Shown: positions 11,772-30,845 of the stretch, one piece after another
How positions within the stretch are numbered: the stretch's first letter is position 1
Layout of the letters: each line of letters begins with the position of its first letter
IMG/VR virus record: IMGVR_UViG_3300017969_000056
Span: 1-34,576 of that record
DNA: 34,576 nucleotides
Origin: a virus
Reading direction: 5' to 3' (one strand)
The notes under the pieces: generated by a model
Told to the model about the DNA's origin: nothing
Database searches by the model: none
Seen by the model: the letters and a program-made list of their open reading frames with translations, nothing else
Position numbers and translations under genes: made by a program

Positions 11772-12691
11772 TACCTAACTCCACTAATTGAAACAAAAGT
11801 AATTTGATCAGAAAGCTCTTGATCCCCCAAAGTAACATAAGGATTATAGCTAAACTGATATGAATTTATTTTAAAACGATTTCCAGAAGACAACACATTT
11901 TTTCTAGAGTCTGTAGTAATCTTTAACCTATAATCTCTATAACTTAAATCATCTCTATCAATAAAAGCAAAATTATCACTCTTATCCTTTGAATAAGCAT
12001 CTATCGTTATAGGAGAATAATTTCTTAAATCATTTGCATCAATATTTATCGGCACAATCTCATATTTAAAGAATCCAAAATCTGGCCCCTTGGAACCAAC
12101 AACCTTAATGCTCGGTCCACTAAAAATAGCGTAAACAACAGAATCATTTTTTTCTGTCTCACCATTATACCAATTTGTTCCACTATTTATAAAAGAAAAA
12201 TTATAATAAGAAGTAGAGTTCAAATCTACAGAAAAAGAATTTACATCAACATTATCGAAATCAATATAAACATCCGAATCTTCTGGAGTGTTAATATAAT
12301 AATCTACCGTACCGTTATTATCAAAGGATTTTATCTTTCTTATATTAGGAGCCTTATAATATAAAACATACTGATATTCTATTTCTTGATCAGCCTGGTG
12401 ATCAACTGCCGCTTGAAAATATGCAATACCTTCATTAATAACAGTTTTAACTGGAACAAAATAATCTCCAGACCTTACATTCTCATAAACAACAACATAA
12501 GAATAATCATCCTCATTAGACTCTAAAGAAGAATCATAATAGCTAGATATATCATATTGAGATACATCAACAAACAACCATGTTCCTGCACTAATATTAT
12601 CATTAGGAGTAAACTTAGATATCCTCCTGCGTAAAACAGGATAAGTATACTCAGTTGCACTTTGTGTTTTTAAATATTTAAACCAGCTCAT
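11771..12691 (-). CDS. Virion structural protein, likely baseplate or fibre base
   Basis: 306 residues, rich in Tyr, Asp, Ser and Asn and strongly beta in pattern (YSYVVVYENVRSGDYFVPVKTVI). The composition resembles baseplate or neck proteins of environmental phages. There is no enzyme motif, signal peptide or membrane segment. It stops one base into the start of the S74 fibre gene and starts immediately after the preceding gene, so the three are translated together. I do not recognise the family. Confidence 0.5.
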   Translation of the reverse strand: MSWFKYLKTQSATEYTYPVLRRRISKFTPNDNISAGTWLFVDVSQYDISSYYDSSLESNEDDYSYVVVYENVRSGDYFVPVKTVINEGIAYFQAAVDHQADQEIEYQYVLYYKAPNIRKIKSFDNNGTVDYYINTPEDSDVYIDFDNVDVNSFSVDLNSTSYYNFSFINSGTNWYNGETEKNDSVVYAIFSGPSIKVVGSKGPDFGFFKYEIVPINIDANDLRNYSPITIDAYSKDKSDNFAFIDRDDLSYRDYRLKITTDSRKNVLSSGNRFKINSYQFSYNPYVTLGDQELSDQITFVSISGVR

Positions 12692-14281
12692 TTAACTAAT
12701 CTCTATGTAACTAATCTCATATTCATAATCTTCAGTTATAGAATCATCAATCTCTATACCAATGACAGTATCAAAAACAGGAACACCGCCCTCAATAACA
12801 TCAGGTATAAAAGTTATAACCCTAACAGATAAAGGTTTTATAGCATAATTATTTCTATTGTCCTGATCTCTAACAGAAGAAAAATCTATATCTCTAATAG
12901 ATATTCTAGCAGATCCGTCAACACCAGTATGGGCATGAGAGCCAATATCTACGCCATCTATCGTAACATTATCTTCCGTAGATATATTCCCTGTTATAAC
13001 TCCGCCACTTCTCAAAAGATACTGCGGATGATCATTAGAATCCAATCCGTCTAAATCAGAATGACTGGAACCATACGTATCATTTCTTTTTGTGTTAACA
13101 TTTATGTTTCTAAAAAATAATGAGTAGTTGTCTTCTTCTATGTTTTTTAGAACTGCTTTCTTTTTAACAGCCTTATAGGAAAGCTGAGAAATAAAATTTG
13201 AATACTTTCTCTTTTCATGAACGAGCATCATAACCATATCCATTTTTTCCATAAACATAGAAAAACGCTCTAACATGTCTGCTTGAATCGAAACAAAATT
13301 ACCTTTAATAAAAGTTGAAGCTACATAAATCTCTTTAGATAATGTAGGAAACATTTCATTGTGATTAGTTGTTTCTCTTTCAAGCTCCAATGGTGAAGCT
13401 ATATCTTTATTCAACCTTATTGATGGTCGAAGATAGTTATCATAAAAAATATCGCAATTATCCACCATATCTCTTTGAAGAGAAGATAAGATATTAGAAA
13501 TTTCTGAATCTACAGCATTTAACTTGATCGAAAAAAAAGTTTGGAACTGCGCGGCTTGCTTTTTTCCGATTTTATCCACTTCGGATGCTGGGACCTTTCG
13601 CGGAACTGATGCGATTGTCTTCTTGATCCGTTGTGCATAGTCTGTCGCCATCTTACACCAGGAATAGTATTGAGATGCGACTTTTTGCTGTGATTCATTT
13701 TCATATCCACCTCCAAAGTCAGATAATAATGATTTCTTAATACAAGAAAGCTCACTCATTACCAGCATCAACATTCTTCTAAAATTAAACAAATAAGAAA
13801 AAGTTGAATGAGCAATTGCTTCCCTATATTCTTCTATTAATCTTCTACCAGCCGTAGAAGAAATCTTCTCCGCAAAAACATATTGATCGAAACAAATATA
13901 ATCCGGAGCAGACGTAAGAGAATCAGTATTAATACTTACCTGAGAAAGATACCTGCTAGCCTCATCCCACATTCTAAAATGCGCCTGCTCTAAATCTGGA
14001 TCCACATAAGGATCAATATATATCTTTCTTAAAAGATCATCTTCAATAATTTTCTTGGTTTCAAAAACCAATTTTTCAGTATAGGAAACATGCTTTTTTA
14101 TATCAGCCAAAGGAATAGTGTAAGAAGTTCTGAAATAACTATTAGTTATCGGTCTAATGTCTTGAAGTTTCTTTTGAGATTGCTCTAAACCAGTAGGGTT
14201 ATCAAAGAAACTGTCAGAAAAACTATAGTCACCAAACAAACCGTTTTTATCGGAAGGAAAGTCTTGGATTTGATCACTCAT
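12692..14281 (-). CDS. Baseplate/fibre hub protein with C-terminal fibre motif
   Basis: 529 residues. Residues 1-390 are mostly helical, with many charged and aromatic positions and long amphipathic stretches (ISNILSSLQRDMVDNCDIFYDNY). At residues 417-430 is NDHPQYLLRSGGVITGNIS, the phage fibre segment found before trimeric shaft repeats, and then IDGVDIGSHAHTG. The protein therefore joins a helical base to a fibre-like end, as expected for a fibre anchor. It lies directly after the terminase gene in transcription order, 8 bases away. Confidence 0.6.
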   Translation of the reverse strand: MSDQIQDFPSDKNGLFGDYSFSDSFFDNPTGLEQSQKKLQDIRPITNSYFRTSYTIPLADIKKHVSYTEKLVFETKKIIEDDLLRKIYIDPYVDPDLEQAHFRMWDEASRYLSQVSINTDSLTSAPDYICFDQYVFAEKISSTAGRRLIEEYREAIAHSTFSYLFNFRRMLMLVMSELSCIKKSLLSDFGGGYENESQQKVASQYYSWCKMATDYAQRIKKTIASVPRKVPASEVDKIGKKQAAQFQTFFSIKLNAVDSEISNILSSLQRDMVDNCDIFYDNYLRPSIRLNKDIASPLELERETTNHNEMFPTLSKEIYVASTFIKGNFVSIQADMLERFSMFMEKMDMVMMLVHEKRKYSNFISQLSYKAVKKKAVLKNIEEDNYSLFFRNINVNTKRNDTYGSSHSDLDGLDSNDHPQYLLRSGGVITGNISTEDNVTIDGVDIGSHAHTGVDGSARISIRDIDFSSVRDQDNRNNYAIKPLSVRVITFIPDVIEGGVPVFDTVIGIEIDDSITEDYEYEISYIEIS

Positions 14282-26607: not shown

Positions 26608-26749
26608 GGAGTGTGATATTCCTCCTAATTTTGTGGAATCTGTCCGCCCATGTGACAATGGTTCGATGGTTACTTGTGTAACGTGCCGTGATTGTGGCGA
26701 GTATTGGGAGGAGCCTTCCAGCGACGAAGAAAATTTTTCAGATTCGTAG
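26582..26749 (+). CDS. 55-aa zinc-ribbon protein after recA
   Basis: ATG 26582 (MKYQHMICEECDIP) overlaps the recA end by 26 bases; an alternative in-frame ATG is at 26597. TAG is at 26747-26749. Cysteines at 8, 11, 24, 32, 35 and 38 (ICEECD, RPC, TCVTCRDCGEYW) make a probable zinc ribbon, followed by an acidic, Ser-rich tail ending SDS. Function is unknown. Because of the overlap it belongs to the recA operon. Confidence 0.65.
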   Translation: MKYQHMICEECDIPPNFVESVRPCDNGSMVTCVTCRDCGEYWEEPSSDEENFSDS

Positions 26750-26760
26750 GTGGAAGTGTT

Positions 26761-26829
26761 ATGTCTGTTACACGAAGGTCGTTAAAGATTTATCTTAATG
26801 TTATATCTTTGATCTCACAATTGAAGTAG
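26761..26829 (+). CDS. Possible 22-aa peptide
   Basis: ATG 26761 to TAG 26827-26829 encodes 22 residues beginning MSVTRRSLKIYLNVISLIS, a basic amphipathic helix. The SD (GGTGGAAG) is weak. It ends inside the -10/-35 spacer of the next promoter. It could be a leader peptide of the recA operon tail or a chance frame. Confidence 0.25.
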   Translation: MSVTRRSLKIYLNVISLISQLK

Positions 26830-26837
26830 GTTACTAT
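26809..26837 (+). promoter_or_regulatory. Promoter for a probable leaderless mRNA
   Basis: TTGATC (26809-26814), 17 bases, then TACTAT (26832-26837). The expected start, about seven bases after the -10, coincides with the ATG at 26844, and no SD precedes that ATG. Leaderless mRNAs are common in actinobacteria, so this promoter and gene fit each other. Confidence 0.6.
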
Positions 26838-26843
26838 TAGTTT

Positions 26844-27152
26844 ATGGATATGAGTTTTATTCGTAGGCTACTAGATTTTTTTGATAACGCCGAAAAACAG
26901 GAGATTGATGGTTTTCCTGTGTATAACATGCCGTACGATCAAGATAATGACAATATCGAAGAACGTATTGTTACCATGCACTCTACCGCTGACGGTAAAA
27001 TGGTGATGTCTTTGTTTAACATGGAACAATGGGATATGGTGTGTAGTATTGCGGAGATCTCTGAGAAACCTGTTGATGTTGTTGTTGCGGAACTTGCGAA
27101 AGATAACGATATCACCACAATTGTTTTGGATCCCGGCGACGAAATTTTTTAG
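26844..27152 (+). CDS. 102-aa acidic protein, probably leaderless
   Basis: 102 residues beginning MDMSFIRRLLDFFDNAEKQE. It is acidic with a helical N-terminus, a central beta-like part (ERIVTMHSTADGKMVMSLFN) and a helix ending in DDITTIVLDPGDEIF-like acidic sequence. There is no SD; the promoter spacing predicts that transcription begins at the ATG itself. A strong bidirectional terminator follows, so it is a single-gene unit. It has the style of an early phage protein that acts on a host factor, but no family is recognised. Confidence 0.6.
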   Translation: MDMSFIRRLLDFFDNAEKQEIDGFPVYNMPYDQDNDNIEERIVTMHSTADGKMVMSLFNMEQWDMVCSIAEISEKPVDVVVAELAKDNDITTIVLDPGDEIF

Positions 27153-27175
27153 AACGTTCACCACACAAAAAAATA

Positions 27176-27224
27176 AGAGAGGGGCATAGTCCAAATGGCA
27201 AAAGGACTACACCCCTCTCTTTTT
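27176..27224. terminator. Bidirectional intrinsic terminator
   Basis: A long stem pairs AGAGAGGGG (27176-27184) with CCCCTCTCT (27212-27220) and TAGTCC with GGACTA, interrupted by a short mismatch. It is followed by T5 on the plus strand and, because A7 precedes it, by U7 on the minus strand. It ends both the rightward 102-aa gene and the leftward zinc-ribbon gene. Confidence 0.85.
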
Positions 27225-27267
27225 CTATATATACCTTATTATGGAGGATAAGATAACTGACATTATA

Positions 27268-27474
27268 TCAGTAATCATACCCTCTTTCAAACCCATAATC
27301 ATCAAACACAGAATCCCCATAATCTCCATGCGAAGCGTATGAAGAAACACCCACAAAATCGTCCATAGAGTTCACCCACTGCAAACAGTCGGGACAACGC
27401 AGAGACGACGACACAATATCGTCAGACACCACAAACTCTGAACCGCATTTCGGACAATCCACATATGTGCTCAT
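27268..27474 (-). CDS. 68-aa zinc-ribbon protein
   Basis: 68 residues with SD AAGGAG seven bases before the ATG. Cysteines 7, 10, 27 and 30 (DCPKCGSEF and RCPDCLQW) form a classical zinc ribbon of the type found in transcription-related and small phage proteins. The tail is rich in Tyr, Asp, Gly and Ser (FDDYGFERGYDY). It is transcribed leftward from its own promoter at 27547-27575 and ends at the bidirectional terminator, an isolated unit. Confidence 0.7.
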   Translation of the reverse strand: MSTYVDCPKCGSEFVVSDDIVSSSLRCPDCLQWVNSMDDFVGVSSYASHGDYGDSVFDDYGFERGYDY

Positions 27475-27546
27475 ATTTTCTCCTTAAGATGATTAAGCAT
27501 CTTGTCGTATATGTTGTACATCACCCCGTGTGAGATGACACACCTA

Positions 27547-27575
27547 TATATACACCACCCATCCTATTATTGCAA
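27547..27575 (-). promoter_or_regulatory. Leftward promoter of the zinc-ribbon gene
   Basis: On the minus strand TTGCAA (27570-27575), a 17-base spacer and TATATA (27547-27552) match a sigma70-type promoter. The transcript would begin near 27540 with a short leader containing a GTGTG/CACAC hairpin (27528-27543) before the SD. Confidence 0.55.
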
Positions 27576-27693
27576 CCCCAAACACAGAAAAACCAGAAAA
27601 AAGTTAACTCAAGCCGCCCCCAACACCCATAAAGCCACATAAACCTATAAAAAAACATACCCTAGTGAAAAATAAGAAAAATTTATGAGTCCC

Positions 27694-27766
27694 TAATAGT
27701 GAGTATATGTGTTGCCTTTAAGGCTTAACGTGCCCACCGGGGCATGGGGGTAACACAGGAAGGAGT
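27694..27766 (+). promoter_or_regulatory. Three-way-junction leader (A) before the HAD gene
   Basis: Closing helix GTGTT/AACAC (27709-27713 with 27752-27756) encloses two hairpins, GCCT/AGGC (27714-27724) and TGCCC/GGGCA (27731-27744). SD AAGGAG follows at once. The core TTGCCTTYARGGC...ACGT is shared with leader B at 30734. In both, TAATA lies 15 bases upstream of the closing helix, a possible -10. The 296 bases from 27475 hold no other gene; the part before this leader is AT-rich and plain. Confidence 0.5.
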
Positions 27767-27770
27767 CGCC

Positions 27771-28196
27771 ATGAACAAGGCAGTTCTGGTTGACATTGAC
27801 GGGACTCTCGTTGGGATCACACCTAACTGGAGTATGGATCGAGACGCTGAGTGGGTTGAAGAGACCCTCAAGGCGGAAGTGTACACGGATGCAGTGGAGA
27901 TGCTGCATCAGTACAAGAAGGAAGGCTACAAGCTGGTTGTTGTGACAGCTCGTGGCCAGAGCTGCAAGGCAAACACCTGGAAGAAGTTCCGGGAGATGGG
28001 TATAGATACGCTGGTTGACAGCGTGTGGCATCGTCCAGTGGCCTGGGAGGGTAAGGATAGTGCTTCATACAAGGAGGCGATGATCAAGCGTCTCTCCAAG
28101 AAGTACAACTTCGTGTGGGCCATGGAGGATGAGGATAGGAACAAGGAAGTCATGACGGCTGCAGGTATGCAGATCTGGCATGGCGAGGGTAAGTGA
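27771..28196 (+). CDS. HAD phosphatase resembling the PseT 3'-phosphatase domain
   Basis: 141 residues from ATG 27771; the upstream ATG at 27744 is inside the leader structure and lacks an SD. HAD motif I is LVDIDGTLVG (nucleophile Asp8, Asp10), motif II is VVVTARG (Thr59), motif III is a Lys near 106, and motif IV is MEDEDRN (about 119-124). The end, EDRNKEVMTAAGMQIWH, resembles the phosphatase half of T4 polynucleotide kinase. The kinase half is absent. It probably removes 3' phosphates from RNA or DNA ends, for example in repairing tRNAs cut by a host defence. A nucleotidase is the alternative. Confidence 0.7.
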   Translation: MNKAVLVDIDGTLVGITPNWSMDRDAEWVEETLKAEVYTDAVEMLHQYKKEGYKLVVVTARGQSCKANTWKKFREMGIDTLVDSVWHRPVAWEGKDSASYKEAMIKRLSKKYNFVWAMEDEDRNKEVMTAAGMQIWHGEGK

Positions 28197-28236
28197 CGTA
28201 AGTAGCAATAGGATCAACAAGGAGAACAAACGAAAC

Positions 28237-28320
28237 ATGTGGTACGTATTCATCTATTTCATTCCCGTGTCAATCATCTCTATCACTGTCTTTGTGCAGC
28301 TGTGGAGGAATGATAAGTAA
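28237..28320 (+). CDS. 27-aa single-pass membrane peptide
   Basis: ATG 28237 to TAA 28318-28320. The product is almost entirely one hydrophobic helix (WYVFIYFIPVSIISITVF) with a charged end, WRNDK. An SD (AAGGAG at 28219-28224) lies 12 bases upstream, somewhat far. It ends exactly where the next structured leader begins. It is the style of a small phage membrane protein; superinfection exclusion or lysis accessory are guesses. Confidence 0.5.
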   Translation: MWYVFIYFIPVSIISITVFVQLWRNDK

Positions 28321-28425
28321 TGCCGAAACCCCTACAACAGGGGTCTGTATGAGCTGGTTACTCATGCACTGATGATGGCAAACCGATCACTATCAGACAA
28401 CCAACTATGTACTTAGGAGGTACAT
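28321..28425 (+). promoter_or_regulatory. Structured leader (C) with SD hairpin
   Basis: The closing pair TGCC/GGCA (28321-28324 with 28377-28380) encloses hairpins ACCCC/GGGGT and ATGAG/CTCAT (28349-28365). The loop TGGTT of the second could pair with AACCA at 28399-28403. Next comes ATGTAC/GTACAT (28407-28412 with 28420-28425) with loop TTAGGAG, which holds the SD. The SD hairpin is certain by sequence; the upstream fold has alternatives. Confidence 0.55.
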
Positions 28426-28429
28426 TACA

Positions 28430-28957
28430 ATGGATAACATCACATTCAACCTGATCCAGGAGATGATTCTGGATCTCGAAGACAACTACGACCTTTGCCA
28501 CAGCAATGGGACGTACACCCACATCGTCAACCGCTACACCTACATCGTGGAGAGGATTGACCTGGAAAACAATGTCCGTATCATCTCTACTCTGGATGAT
28601 TCGATGAAGTATCTCGAATTCACTGGAGACCCACGGCAGGACAAGTATGGTTTCATCAACCGTATGCGTGACTACATCCGTAGTTCCGCAGTCAACACAC
28701 CCAACCATACTTCTGAGATGTCCAGCTACCATGTTGATGATGCTCTTAAGGCTGCGGCTGAAGGGCGTGTCTACCACTGGAATGGTGGACAGCTGTACAC
28801 GAAGGAGGGAAGTGCAGTCAAGGTTTACGACTTCACTACCAACAGCATCACATGGATGACACTGGCCAAGAGCTGGGTCTACATGCAGGAGAACCGCCTT
28901 CATAAGGTGGACATTGACAGTGTCAGGTACGCAGCTCGTAGTGTGCGTAACTGGTGA
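28430..28957 (+). CDS. 175-aa protein, unknown
   Basis: 175 residues (MDNITFNLIQEMILDLEDNY onward), soluble and acidic, with a balanced alpha/beta pattern and no catalytic motif that I recognise. The central AALKAAAEGRVYHWNGGQLY-like segment and the following beta strands suggest a compact two-part fold. Its SD is enclosed in a 6-bp hairpin, so translation is probably controlled. It overlaps nothing and precedes a small membrane protein gene by 32 bases, probably on the same mRNA. Confidence 0.6.
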   Translation: MDNITFNLIQEMILDLEDNYDLCHSNGTYTHIVNRYTYIVERIDLENNVRIISTLDDSMKYLEFTGDPRQDKYGFINRMRDYIRSSAVNTPNHTSEMSSYHVDDALKAAAEGRVYHWNGGQLYTKEGSAVKVYDFTTNSITWMTLAKSWVYMQENRLHKVDIDSVRYAARSVRNW

Positions 28958-28989
28958 TCAACCCAACAACAAGAAGAAGGAGACAAGAA

Positions 28990-29268
28990 ATGAACAATGA
29001 CAGAATCAACAAGAACATCCGGATGATGGTCATCGCAATGATGATCTTCATCTTCGGAGCTATCTTCATGGCCACCGTTGTGTACGGCATTCAGCTGTTC
29101 GCATGGATGGCTGTTGAAGCACACGATGCCGGAGCCAACATTGTTGGTACTTTCTGGCTGTTGGCAGCAACAGGATTTGCCGGTGCGGCTACCGTGTTTA
29201 TCGGTGCGCTGGGATATGGCATCCTTGAGCTGTGTGATGGCCTGAAGAAGGTCAAGAATACCTTGTAA
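28990..29268 (+). CDS. 92-aa two-helix membrane protein
   Basis: 92 residues from ATG 28990, chosen because AAGGAG lies 7 bases upstream; the frame is open further upstream to a GTG at the previous stop. Two long hydrophobic segments, MMVIAMMIFIFGAIFMATVV and the later FWLLAATGFAGAATVFIGAL, are joined by a short polar loop; both ends are charged. This is a holin-like layout, although no lysis gene is adjacent, so another small envelope protein is equally possible. A strong terminator follows 8 bases after the stop. Confidence 0.65.
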   Translation: MNNDRINKNIRMMVIAMMIFIFGAIFMATVVYGIQLFAWMAVEAHDAGANIVGTFWLLAATGFAGAATVFIGALGYGILELCDGLKKVKNTL

Positions 29269-29275
29269 TGCAGTG

Positions 29276-29326
29276 GGTTGTGCCCCTGGGGTCTTCGGAC
29301 TCCGGGGGCAACAACCTCTTTTTTTT
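29276..29326 (+). terminator. Strong intrinsic terminator with TTCG loop
   Basis: A stem of about 18 bp (29276-29293 with 29298-29316, one bulged A) closed by a TTCG tetraloop is followed by eight T (29319-29326). It ends the transcript of the membrane protein gene, and the T run is shared with the repeat element that follows. Confidence 0.9.
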
Positions 29327-29350
29327 ACGGATAGAGGCTTGACCTCTATT
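29319..29350 (+). repeat. T8-N4-ATAGAG inverted-repeat element, copy 1
   Basis: Eight T, four bases (ACGG), then ATAGAGG, loop CTTGA and CCTCTAT (29331-29349). The same layout recurs three more times below with the same T8 length and same four-base gap. Roles to consider are phage-specific promoter, operator or RNA 5' stabilising hairpin. Confidence 0.75.
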
Positions 29351-29352
29351 CT

Positions 29353-29395
29353 GGGGTATGTGTCACAGCCCCGCTCAATCCGGAGCAAAGTGACA
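29353..29395 (+). ncRNA. H-type pseudoknot leader, PK1
   Basis: Stem 1 is GGGG/CCCC (29353-29356 with 29369-29372) with a 12-base loop. Loop bases TGTCAC (29361-29366) pair with GTGACA (29390-29395), giving stem 2. Between them GCTC/GAGC (29373-29386) forms a small hairpin. The SD AAAGGAG begins two bases after stem 2, so folding should affect ribosome access. Confidence 0.65.
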
Positions 29396-29409
29396 GAAAG
29401 GAGTGATCC

Positions 29410-29619
29410 ATGTTTGCGTGGATCATTCACCTCCTCCGTCGTCTCTTCCCAGAGAAGACGATCCGCTGCTGGAGCTGCGGCAGAGAGTTCCCTGCCGAGC
29501 TCATCGCGGACGTTGATCTGTGTGGACCCTGCGATGTGCGGGAAACCCTCACGGGGTGGTGCGACGACTGCAATCGCTGGTGCAGCAGGTGCATCTGCCC
29601 GGAGCCGTGTGAGGAGTGA
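29410..29619 (+). CDS. 69-aa protein with four CxxC pairs
   Basis: 69 residues. An amphipathic basic N-terminus (MFAWIIHLLRRLFP) could touch the membrane. The rest has cysteines at 20, 23, 38, 41, 51, 54, 58, 61, 63 and 67 (RCWSCGRE, LCGPCD, WCDDCNRWCSRCICPEPC), enough for two zinc sites. SD AAAGGAG at ideal spacing. It is the only gene between two terminators, so it is a monocistronic cassette with its own pseudoknot leader. No family is recognised. Confidence 0.7.
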   Translation: MFAWIIHLLRRLFPEKTIRCWSCGREFPAELIADVDLCGPCDVRETLTGWCDDCNRWCSRCICPEPCEE

Positions 29620-29622
29620 GAT

Positions 29623-29678
29623 GTGTTCCCCGGGGATCGACAGAAATGTCGGTCCTCGGGGTAACACCCCTTTTTTTT
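29623..29678 (+). terminator. Strong intrinsic terminator with GAAA loop
   Basis: A stem of about 20 bp, GTGTT/AACAC outside and CGACA/TGTCG inside a GAAA tetraloop (29643-29646), is followed by four C and eight T (29671-29678). It begins 4 bases after the stop of the Cys-rich gene. Confidence 0.9.
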
Positions 29679-29705
29679 GCGAATAGAGAGATGGTATCTC
29701 TGTTC
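29671..29705 (+). repeat. T8-N4-ATAGAG element, copy 2
   Basis: Eight T, GCGA, then ATAGAGA paired with TCTCTGT (G-U pair included) around a 7-base loop; the full stem spans 29681-29705. The arms differ from copy 1 but still pair, so pairing is conserved. Confidence 0.75.
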
Positions 29706-29706
29706 A

Positions 29707-29724
29707 AGGGTCTAGGAGGGCCCT
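29707..29724 (+). promoter_or_regulatory. Hairpin with the SD in its loop
   Basis: AGGG (29707-29710) pairs with CCCT (29721-29724), leaving TCTAGGAGGG in the loop. The SD AGGAGG of the next gene is therefore inside the loop. This hairpin replaces the pseudoknot found in cassettes 1 and 4. It resembles in style the start-associated sequences of cluster K mycobacteriophages. Confidence 0.5.
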
Positions 29725-29729
29725 ATGTT

Positions 29730-29951
29730 ATGGATAATCAAGAGATTGTTTGCTACGTCTGCGGTCGGGTGACCAACCACTGGGGAGAGCATGAAAACCT
29801 GCTCGGCCTGGGCCTGGTCATGGATGACGAGACCGGAACCAGGTGGACCGACTTCGGTCTTCACCTGCAAAGGAACAACCCGAAGCTCTTCACCGAGCTG
29901 ATGGATGTTCTCGGTCAGGTCATGGACTACCAGATCCGCGAGGGGTTTTAG
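29730..29951 (+). CDS. 73-aa protein with one CxxC site
   Basis: 73 residues from ATG 29730. The frame is open further upstream through the terminator, but only this start has a properly placed SD; an out-of-frame ATG lies at 29725. The N-terminal CYVCGR (Cys8, Cys11) with His17 and His21 may bind zinc; the remainder is an acidic alpha/beta unit ending in VLGQVMDYQIREGF. Monocistronic cassette between terminators. Unknown family. Confidence 0.65.
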   Translation: MDNQEIVCYVCGRVTNHWGEHENLLGLGLVMDDETGTRWTDFGLHLQRNNPKLFTELMDVLGQVMDYQIREGF

Positions 29952-29952
29952 A

Positions 29953-30011
29953 AAGGAGGTGATTGCGCCCCCTTGGACTTCGGTCCTTGGGGGCAACACC
30001 CTCTTTTTTTT
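29953..30011 (+). terminator. Orphan SD followed by intrinsic terminator
   Basis: AAAGGAGGTGA (29953-29962) is a near-perfect SD, yet no usable gene follows. Within a few bases begins a hairpin, GCCCCC/GGGGGC and GGAC/GTCC around a TTCG loop (29967-29994), then eight T (30004-30011). The terminator ends the 73-aa gene transcript; the SD may be the remnant of a lost gene. Confidence 0.8.
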
Positions 30012-30034
30012 ATGGATAGAGGATCGGCCTCTAT
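30004..30034 (+). repeat. T8-N4-ATAGAG element, copy 3
   Basis: Eight T, ATGG, ATAGAGG (30016-30022), loop ATCGG and CCTCTAT (30028-30034). No pseudoknot follows. Downstream is only AAAAGGAAAG and an ATG immediately followed by TGA (30052-30057), so this looks like an empty cassette. Confidence 0.75.
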
Positions 30035-30140
30035 GGAAAAGGAAAGATTTAATGTGAAACGAAAATGTATAAGAACCATGTGTAAATCTAGCTTTTTAAA
30101 GTAATTATAGCCAATAGGGTAATTATAGGACTTTAGTCTC
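30035..30140 (+). other. AT-rich gene-free insert between copies 3 and 4
   Basis: About 105 AT-rich bases without a gene, in contrast to the GC-rich surroundings. It contains a start-stop ATGTGA with an SD-like AAAGGA, a six-codon frame, and a 10-base direct repeat GTAATTATAG (30101-30110 and 30119-30128). It may be decayed coding sequence. Confidence 0.5.
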
Positions 30141-30173
30141 TTTTTTTTGCGAATAGAGGTTAGATCTCTATTC
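30141..30173 (+). repeat. T8-N4-ATAGAG element, copy 4
   Basis: Eight T (30141-30148), GCGA, then GAATAGAG pairing with CTCTATTC (30151-30158 with 30166-30173) around a 7-base loop. Only a weak GAC/GTC stem precedes the T run here, so the T8 tract is kept even without a good terminator. Confidence 0.75.
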
Positions 30174-30174
30174 A

Positions 30175-30206
30175 CGGGTATCGCTTGCTGCCCGCCTAAA
30201 GCAAGC
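30175..30206 (+). ncRNA. H-type pseudoknot leader, PK2
   Basis: Stem 1 CGGG/CCCG (30175-30178 with 30191-30194) has a 12-base loop. Loop bases GCTTGCT (30183-30189) pair with AGCAAGC (30200-30206). The SD AAAGGAGG starts on the next base. Loop length, GGGTAT entry and AAAG before the last strand match PK1, while both stems differ in sequence, which is covariation. Confidence 0.7.
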
Positions 30207-30222
30207 AAAGGAGGAAGATGCT

Positions 30223-30489
30223 GTGAAGCATTTTCAGGTCACCATCCGGGAGTCCGACAACACCAAGTCGGTTCTCGTTGTCCCGGCCGAGAGGCAGTCG
30301 GACATCGCCAAGTTCCTCAAGGATCTCGGCGTTTCTGGCAGCATCAAGCCGATCAACATTCCGGATCCGCTGAAGGACATCACCGTCACCTGCGGGTGGG
30401 GGTCAGATGCCCACGCATGGCCCACTTTCAAGTGGAATGCCATCATCAGCAACAACCGCTGCCCTAGCTACCCCAATTGCCAGGGCTGA
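30223..30489 (+). CDS. 88-aa protein, GTG start, unknown
   Basis: 88 residues starting at GTG 30223, eight bases after SD GGAGG; the nearer ATG (30218) is followed at once by a stop. The sequence begins MKHFQVTIRESDNTKSVLVV and resembles a small alpha/beta domain; it ends SNNRCPSYPNCQG with two cysteines. It precedes the 63-aa Cys-rich gene by 11 bases on the same transcript. No family recognised. Confidence 0.65.
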   Translation: MKHFQVTIRESDNTKSVLVVPAERQSDIAKFLKDLGVSGSIKPINIPDPLKDITVTCGWGSDAHAWPTFKWNAIISNNRCPSYPNCQG

Positions 30490-30500
30490 AAGGAGGAGGT

Positions 30501-30692
30501 ATGCGGTGCCTCAAGCATGGGTGCAACACGCGCCCCCGAGCCAACCCTTTCGTGTGCTCTGTGCACATCGATGAGGTTGACATCCTGCTTCGTGATCATC
30601 TGATCAAGAATCACAAGCAGGGATTCCATCAGGAGGGTACCGGCGGAGATCACCGCTGCCCTCTCTGTGTCCCACAGCTCCCTCTGAGCTGA
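30501..30692 (+). CDS. 63-aa Cys/His protein
   Basis: 63 residues from ATG 30501, chosen for the strong SD AAAGGAGGAGG immediately upstream. Cysteines 3, 8 and 19 with His22 (MRCLKHGCNTRP, VCSVH) and Cys53 and 56 (HRCPLC) suggest one or two zinc sites. The middle VDILLRDHLIKNHKQG is a basic helix. A six-bp hairpin TCACCC/GGGTGA (30699-30717) follows the stop. Unknown family. Confidence 0.65.
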   Translation: MRCLKHGCNTRPRANPFVCSVHIDEVDILLRDHLIKNHKQGFHQEGTGGDHRCPLCVPQLPLS

Positions 30693-30718
30693 CGGACATC
30701 ACCCGCCACAGGGGTGAA

Positions 30719-30843
30719 TAATAATACTTGTGGGCTCCATTTGCCTTCAGGGCACGTCGGTTCATGACCGAGATGGAGCACTGCGCCTTTGTTCACTGGC
30801 GCTTCCCAAAGTAAGTGAACACACTACCACTTAGGAGGTGGTA
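30719..30843 (+). ncRNA. Leader B: three-way junction, pseudoknot (PK3) and SD hairpin
   Basis: Helix GCTCCAT/ATGGAGC (30734-30740 with 30773-30779) encloses TGCC/GGCA (30742-30754) and TCGGT/ACCGA (30757-30771). Then GCGCC/GGCGC (30783-30787 with 30798-30802) has loop bases GTTCACT (30791-30797) that pair with AGTGAAC (30814-30820). Finally TACCAC/GTGGTA (30825-30843) holds the SD in loop TTAGGAG. The ATG follows 2 bases later. TAATAA at 30719 may be a -10. Confidence 0.65.
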
Positions 30844-30845
30844 TT

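Follow-up and report, generated by a model that had tools for sequence, protein, structure and literature searches.

The window considered here is the whole of the IMG/VR virus record IMGVR_UViG_3300017969_000056 (34,576 bases), in which three predicted H-type pseudoknots, PK1 (29352-29395), PK2 (30175-30206) and PK3 (30783-30821), stand on the + strand before the Shine-Dalgarno (SD) sequences of two small orphan genes (C and E) and of gene G, a probable RNA polymerase gene. The - strand carries the portal, terminase, major head and tail fibre genes, and the + strand a RecA/UvsX gene, a polynucleotide-kinase-like gene and small orphans. Positions 25000-34576 have no DNA match among cultured phages, and the portal matches Bacillus phage vB_BauM_KLEB27-3 and Moorella phage MTATph1 at 36%. 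Relatives, referred to below as L-numbered loci, were collected from IMG/VR by way of gene G and RecA; since several of them lie on contigs of ~200 kb, the window is probably a piece of a larger phage genome.

PK1 is built from a first stem (S1), GGGGT/GCCCC (29353-29357/29368-29372), and a second stem (S2), TGTCAC/GTGACA (29361-29366/29390-29395), with an additional GCTC/GAGC hairpin (29373-29386) in loop 3. PK2 has S1 CGGGT/GCCCG (30175-30179/30190-30194), S2 GCTTGCT/AGCAAGC (30183-30189/30200-30206) and a short A-rich loop 3 (CCTAA), and PK3 combines S1 GCGCC/GGCGC (30783-30787/30798-30802) with S2 TGTTCACT/AGTGAACA (30790-30797/30814-30821). The distance from knot to SD is 1-4 bases in class I (PK1 and PK2, the latter adjoining its SD) and ~11 bases in class II (PK3). 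These positions and pairings are as given in an initial annotation made from the sequence, which was also right about the GGGTAT common to PK1 and PK2, the loops of 10-12 bases and the AAAG. Its claim that H-type pseudoknots lie immediately 5' of ribosome binding sites is borne out by a scan of the window and by the relatives. It had located the knots correctly and captured only part of each leader: PK1 further contains the loop-3 hairpin and is followed by a 12-bp hairpin over the start codon, and PK3 is flanked 3' by a hairpin with the SD in its loop and 5' by a three-way-junction-like fold and, beyond it, another pseudoknot. A strict H-type descriptor, not a blind test as its ranges were picked after PK1-PK3 had been seen, matches seven places on both strands of the window, with PK3, PK2 and PK1 as the top three on the + strand and as the only ones with an SD at most 22 bases away; six block-shuffled windows gave 2, 2, 3, 2, 3 and 0 matches, and 1, 0, 0, 0, 0 and 0 with an SD.

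Support comes from homologues of PK1, a family whose hallmark is the extra hairpin in loop 3 together with an [AG]AA strand ahead of S2', the 3' strand of S2. When 2.95 Mb, comprising both strands of the window and the loci, were scanned with a descriptor in which the SD was the sole sequence term, 29 distinct matches were obtained, the top six being the six PK1-type leaders: two in L017 and those of the window, L019, L023/L024/L026 and L032/L033. In the alignment of the family 94 of 94 cells are paired, 5 of the 14 pairs are changed on both sides, and the covariation score is 0.401 as against 0.200 on shuffling (0/500), figures that are inflated by the relatedness of the sequences; sliding the partner strand lowers the pairing to 19-40%. 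A covariance model was also built from seven PK1-type leaders using S1 and the loop hairpin and leaving S2 unpaired, with PK2 excluded on account of its short loop 3 (PK1 matches model R1 at 71.9 bits, its own sequence being in the model). Searched against 40 records, the S2-free model found 10 places in 8 records at E <= 1.2e-6, nine of them previously known. The tenth, at position 17381 of L023 (E 1.2e-6), was absent from model building and stands 5' of AAAGGAGG; by manual reading, its S2 strands, TGTTGT...GTAACA, pair at 6 of 6 positions, two of them as G-U.

PK1-type leaders precede genes of three or more unrelated types, so that the leader appears to move independently of its downstream gene. 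A degenerate pattern for the family, searched in all viral contigs, is found in seven stretches, all in records already recognized as relatives by recA. Across members, what is conserved is the pairing, the A-rich strand ahead of S2' and the SD. No relative of gene E, the gene that follows PK2, was found in the viral contigs, so that PK2 is without an orthologous comparison; its case rests on rarity, place and a PK1-like cassette.

PK3 is one of several structures in the leader of gene G (30846-33170, + strand). This leader starts without the T-run and GGRTAGA element found before PK1 and PK2 and contains, in order, a second pseudoknot (30699-30733; S1 CACCC/GGGTG, S2 CCACA/TGTGG) with the conserved segment GGGGTGAATAATAATACTT, a three-way-junction-like fold with the closing stem GCTCCAT/ATGGAGC (30734-30779), PK3, and a hairpin predicted from sequence and folding, TACCAC-TTAGGAG-GTGGTA (30825-30843), that exposes the SD in its loop. 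L017 and the window have ~130 bases of leader in common, including GGGGTGAATAATAATACTT in a changed stem, GCACTGCGCC, PK3 S1, a compensated S2 and the SD hairpin, and the protein downstream in L017 is just 21% identical to gene G. In PK3, S1 is unchanged between the two and S2 reads GTCTGCT/AGCAGAC in L017 versus GTTCACT/AGTGAAC in the window. Among eight viral stretches, GGGTGAATAATAATAC lies within a PK3 leader RNA only in the window and the L017 contig (fetched as L017 and L087). Further examples come from L006, L007, L008 and L036, where the leader of the gene G orthologue has an H-type knot with a constant S1, CCG/CGG, and an S2 of GTATGGA/TCCATAC, GCATGGA/TCTATGC or GTGCAGA/TCTGCAC; this S2 is paired at 7 of 7 positions in all four sequences, and four of the seven pairs are double-changed. 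L010, L011, L012, L013 and L019 have different knots at the corresponding place, and L113/L115, read manually, have a PK2-like knot 5' of a small upstream open reading frame. Relatives with compensatory changes, which the initial annotation had proposed to seek with a covariance model, are present both in the PK1 family and in the gene G leaders; the covariation it had ascribed to the three knots holds in these relatives and not among PK1-PK3 themselves, PK3 not being demonstrably homologous to PK1 and PK2. The idea that the PK3 leader is tRNA-like was abandoned, since neither the window nor any of 34 scanned loci contains a tRNA.

The 774-residue product of gene G is predicted to adopt a single-chain fold with two double-psi β-barrels, characteristic of an RNA polymerase. 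It aligns over its full length with eleven orthologues and has no match above cut-off in Pfam or PHROG, no match in a sequence profile search of the PDB and no protein match among cultured phages. An AlphaFold model (pLDDT 80, pTM 0.78) retrieved with Foldseek QDE-1 (2j7n, E 1.5e-7) and two phage RNA polymerases, P74 gp62 and P32 gp64 (8f5m and 8f72, E <= 5.8e-4); compared with maize RDR2 (7w84), it gives a VIA Z of 11.6 over 580 residues with a root mean square deviation of 6.7 A. The fold is thus predicted to be related to QDE-1/RDR and phage polymerases, with an unusual putative catalytic motif, DLDDT, in which D439, D441 and D442 are invariant and the third aspartate is off its canonical DxDxD place. 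On the basis of the model, gene G is probably a phage RNA polymerase, and PK3 hence probably leads a polymerase gene.

PK1 and PK2 are parts of a repeated + strand cassette that runs from a terminator and T-run through the GGRTAGA hairpin and the knot to the SD, the SD or start codon being closed in most cases by another hairpin. The PK1 cassette starts with an intrinsic-terminator-like hairpin, GCCCCTGGGGTC-TTCG-GACTCCGGGGGC, and a T8 run (29282-29326; identified from sequence and repeat family D1/D2), followed directly by the GGRTAGA hairpin GGATAGAGG...CCTCTATTC (29329-29351; consensus of 52 leaders), PK1, and gene C (29410-29619), a cysteine-rich orphan of 69 residues. A second cassette (29671-29724), lacking a pseudoknot, consists of a T-run, the GAATAGAGA hairpin and the SD-in-loop hairpin of gene D, AGGGTC-TAGGAG-GGCCCT (29707-29724). 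The PK2 cassette begins with a T8 run and the hairpin GAATAGAGG...CTCTATTC (30141-30173) and leads to gene E (30223-30489), an orphan of 88 residues. Between the latter two cassettes lies a unit with T-runs on both sides and no clear gene (30004-30148), common to L017 from ~14594 and containing GGAAAGGAAAGATTYAATGTGA-like sequence, which may be a small RNA.

The 52 leaders found by the element have a common plan, an optional terminator, a T-run and an (AT)GGRTAGA hairpin, and the element is followed by nothing, by an SD-in-loop hairpin, by a knot or by larger folds; SD-in-loop hairpins without the element are seen in the window at 28408-28424 and before gene G. The sequence TTTTATGGRTAGA occurs at 27 places in 9 of 11 records, with 2-4 copies per record on one strand, and the reversed pattern at none; in the ~200 kb records the copies lie within ~3-8 kb, one record having one copy at its other end. 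A looser pattern, with 154 places of which 72 are on the - strand, is unspecific when used alone. A possible degenerate copy of the element, TTTTTAATAGATCATAGATCTTTATTC, lies at 33315-33345 ahead of the gene at 33497. Leaders of 100-180 bases behind the element (L008 7004, L011 7210, L013 7212; L010 4363 and 7290, L006 7123; L072 16166, L077 17526; L019 15278, L078 17051) seem to represent four or more additional classes of structured RNA, and some of them terminate in a pseudoknot; no Rfam family was matched in L006, L008, L010, L011, L013, L019, L072 and L077.

Knots are enriched mainly where the element is present. In the window and the fetched loci, with near-identical upstream segments merged and L087-L112 left out, a knot ending at most 8 bases from the SD precedes 11 of 54 starts behind the GGRTAGA element (a list that includes two doubtful members, L041 and L075), compared with 2.0 in dinucleotide shuffles; the corresponding values are 16 of 505 against 9.4 for other + strand starts and 4 of 301 against 3.4 on the - strand. 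The leader set used for the knots was curated, in that automatic leaders with a wrong start or duplicates were removed and corrected or gene G leaders were added by hand.

The start regions behind the knots are themselves predicted to be folded. After PK1, the SD AAAGGAG and a start hairpin, GAGTGATCCATG-TTTG-CGTGGATCATTC (29401-29428), occupy 29397-29428, with 12 bp across the ATG of gene C, which is in the stem, and a predicted energy of -17.8 kcal/mol. After PK2, the SD AAAGGAGG and the 9-bp hairpin GAAGATGCT-GTGA-AGCATTTTC (30207-30235) place the GTG of gene E in the loop. A start-site fold with z < -1.5 is found in 16 of 17 pseudoknot leaders versus 10 of 43 other element leaders, and in 39 of 200 + strand and 12 of 117 - strand controls, counts that were tallied by hand on a set from which four leaders had been dropped and to which twelve, all of them pseudoknot leaders, had been added by hand, some of the 17 being related to one another. 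Closed starts could not be claimed for GGRTAGA leaders in general, as those without a knot (10/43) are near the + strand control. With a rough penalty of +9.6 kcal/mol for the knot, the knotted structure has a lower predicted energy than the best nested fold in all 12 of the members compared.

Elsewhere in the window, a pistol ribozyme (Rfam, 72.4 bits) lies at 34365-34429, a second one being found in L004 at 12632-12699. A hammerhead type II match at 28321-28387, at 34 bits just below the gathering score of 37, is immediately 5' of the leader of the gene at 28430; after it comes the SD-in-loop hairpin TGTAC-TTAGGAG-GTACA (28408-28424). Inside the structural gene block of the - strand, a protein of 1116 residues (18192-21542) with no PHROG match carries the sequence FDVETTG, which resembles a DnaQ-type exonuclease motif.

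The nearest organizational parallel is found in the start-associated sequences (SAS) and extended start-associated sequences (ESAS) of cluster K mycobacteriophages and cluster EF Microbacterium phages (PMC3203893, PMC11373665, PMC7302621). As described in passages of these papers, they too recur at the starts of some of the small non-structural genes, just as a repeated motif is present here at the starts of several non-structural genes (families D1-D3); they include an upstream inverted repeat, which in Adephagia overlaps a putative SigA promoter, and a conserved SD-containing motif, GGGATAGGAGCCC, with arms able to pair, and the ESAS of cluster EF is centred on GTAGAG, close to the GGRTAGA of the present element. 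The differences are substantial: SAS is one fixed sequence, whereas the present hairpins have variable arms around a constant loop, (T)TAGGAG; the cluster K authors saw little support for pairing of the inverted repeat in RNA; and, unlike the leaders described here, no pseudoknot is reported in the SAS/ESAS passages, PMC3203893 containing 0 mentions of one. Neither the 13-bp GGGATAGGAGCCC of cluster K nor GGGAAAGGACCCC of cluster EF is matched by the three SD hairpins compared, those at 28408-28424, of gene D and of gene G, and by sequence the elements are not members of SAS/ESAS. Judged by titles and opening lines of abstracts, no paper on leaders like these was found among openly licensed PMC articles on phage leader pseudoknots and translational repression, and a search that joined phage pseudoknots with covariation and the SD gave no paper at all.

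The predicted knots, their compensated conservation, their place before the SD and the closed initiation regions can be read from the sequences, and our tentative interpretation, to which we would give somewhat less than an even chance, is that PK1-PK3 are cis-acting leaders for translation control in which the knot loads or gates ribosomes before a closed start site. Each knot is part of a leader whose start region is predicted to be structured, with PK1 and PK2 inside a modular cassette that the lineage appears to have placed before small accessory genes and, in many relatives, the putative RNA polymerase gene. The knot would be recognized by its shape as a landing and gating site for the 30S subunit, perhaps by way of ribosomal protein S1, and would keep the ribosome beside the folded SD and AUG, such that the leader and not the upstream sequence would set translation; the GGRTAGA hairpin region may contain a promoter from which transcription restarts after each terminator. 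Since the letters of the knot vary and its shape is constant, recognition of shape is favored over a ligand pocket. In the rep mRNAs of IncB/IncI-alpha plasmids, a pseudoknot immediately 5' of the SD activates translation, as proposed here, with the difference that these plasmid replication genes are controlled by an antisense RNA and by translation of a leader peptide. Ribosome loading or gating was our first choice because the tisB (PMC7708055) and timP (PMC11228461) mRNAs, in the portions of those reports that describe them, likewise pair a pseudoknot needed for translation with a sequestered ribosome binding site, a combination predicted here in the 16 of 17 leaders noted above.

Several observations weigh against this interpretation. 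Both precedents are bacterial toxin mRNAs with knots distant from the ribosome binding site, and the standby site of tisB is described as ~100 bases upstream of that site, not beside it (PMC7708055). Several members were chosen by their pairing, so that the 100% pairing is partly by construction; the less biased tests are the gene G leaders, the L017 paralogues and the match of the covariance model. The knot is missing in some orthologous leaders, for example those of L072, L077 and L004, in a list that contains duplicates and loci without a found start. The estimated energy gain of PK1 over the nested fold is just 0.2 kcal/mol, and part of the gene G start hairpin is dictated by codons. The predicted SD is clearly freed by the knot only for PK2 (from 0.19 to 0.91) and partly for L011; it remains paired in most members whether or not the knot forms, and its openness is reduced in L113. 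A plain SD switch, since it would apply to PK2 and L011 and not to most others, is therefore not a general explanation.

An alternative that we consider rather unlikely, if still the most serious, is a translational operator, in which a phage RNA-binding protein recognizes the shape of the knot and blocks or times initiation in the manner of gp32; the initial annotation had likewise suggested sites for a phage protein, and in the case of PK3 that protein could be the RNA polymerase. The constant shape and variable sequence, and the sharing of the knot by several genes, would suit such a mechanism, and an H-type pseudoknot 5' of the ribosome binding site of a phage gene, as found here, is the arrangement of the T4 gene 32 operator, going by the account in PMC3014915. 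In that account, the T4 knot serves one gene, is bound by the gene's own product and lies 67 nt 5' of the start codon, with an open A+U-rich stretch between, whereas here several genes are involved and the knot adjoins the SD and a folded start. No candidate binder was found, nor any conserved RNA-binding gene linked to the leaders, and no single-stranded loop is conserved in all members. Doubtful to a slightly greater degree is a role as a stabilizer or insulator of mRNA, the knot near the 5' end slowing decay or keeping upstream sequence from misfolding onto the SD. A sequence-free structure just behind a T-run and 5' hairpin is what such a role would predict, and the SDs of PK2 and, in part, L011 are predicted to be freed upon knot formation, but the knot is beside the SD and not at the 5' end, where a conserved hairpin already sits, and most members have no predicted effect on SD access.

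A ligand-binding riboswitch of the SAM-II or preQ1-II type is very improbable. PK1 resembles preQ1-II in topology, as that riboswitch also lies near the SD and forms an H-type knot whose loop 3 contains an additional hairpin; in preQ1-II, however, the SD is inside the second stem and the pocket is conserved, neither of which is true of the knots described here, where the SD is outside S2'. An Rfam cmscan of 25000-34576 at E <= 5 gave seven matches, zero of them at PK1-PK3, and the preQ1-II, preQ1-III and SAM-II covariance models were unmatched at the knots, in agreement with the initial annotation, which saw no sequence match to SAM-II, preQ1 or the T4 gene 32 leader. Its suggestion of a ligand sensor is not upheld, as no pocket in S2 or the loops is conserved among members and the downstream genes are unrelated small orphans and the probable polymerase, not one metabolic pathway. 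Even less credible is a descent of the knots from self-cleaving ribozymes of the pistol or HDV-like (hepatitis delta virus-like) type, as remnants or variants: the pistol ribozymes of the window and L004 and the sub-threshold hammerhead II match speak for it, but no ribozyme family, pistol and hammerhead included, matches the knots in Rfam, and an HDV-like core requires a P3/L3 between both strands, which they lack. HDV-like and pistol readings were dropped after their topology had been considered. Chance pairing in GC-rich DNA, for which it can be said that single complementary hexamer pairs are common and that the finder gives some matches in shuffled sequence, is the least credible of all in view of the knot-near-SD enrichment, the rarity in the window, the S2 of the new L023 member and the covariation in the PK1 family and gene G leaders, which refutes it for the predicted PK1 and PK3.

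If translation control by the knots is extended to the system as a whole, the lineage would possess undescribed plug-in translation leaders, in which knot shape and a closed SD/AUG hairpin set ribosome entry for a group of genes including the RNA polymerase, and the polymerase, which we would guess transcribes the cassettes, would do so from promoters situated between terminator and knot, uniting transcription and translation in one regulon; we regard this picture as possible and, on balance, unlikely. According to the relevant section of a 2010 review (PMC3014915), the T4 gene 32 pseudoknot was perhaps the sole viral example in translation autoregulation; here, one phage lineage has several such knots before unrelated genes, with clear covariation. 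The knots amount to natural, sequence-diverse replicates of one shape, which would allow a direct test of whether structures adjacent to the SD recruit or block ribosomes, and they may explain the role of start-associated elements in other phages.

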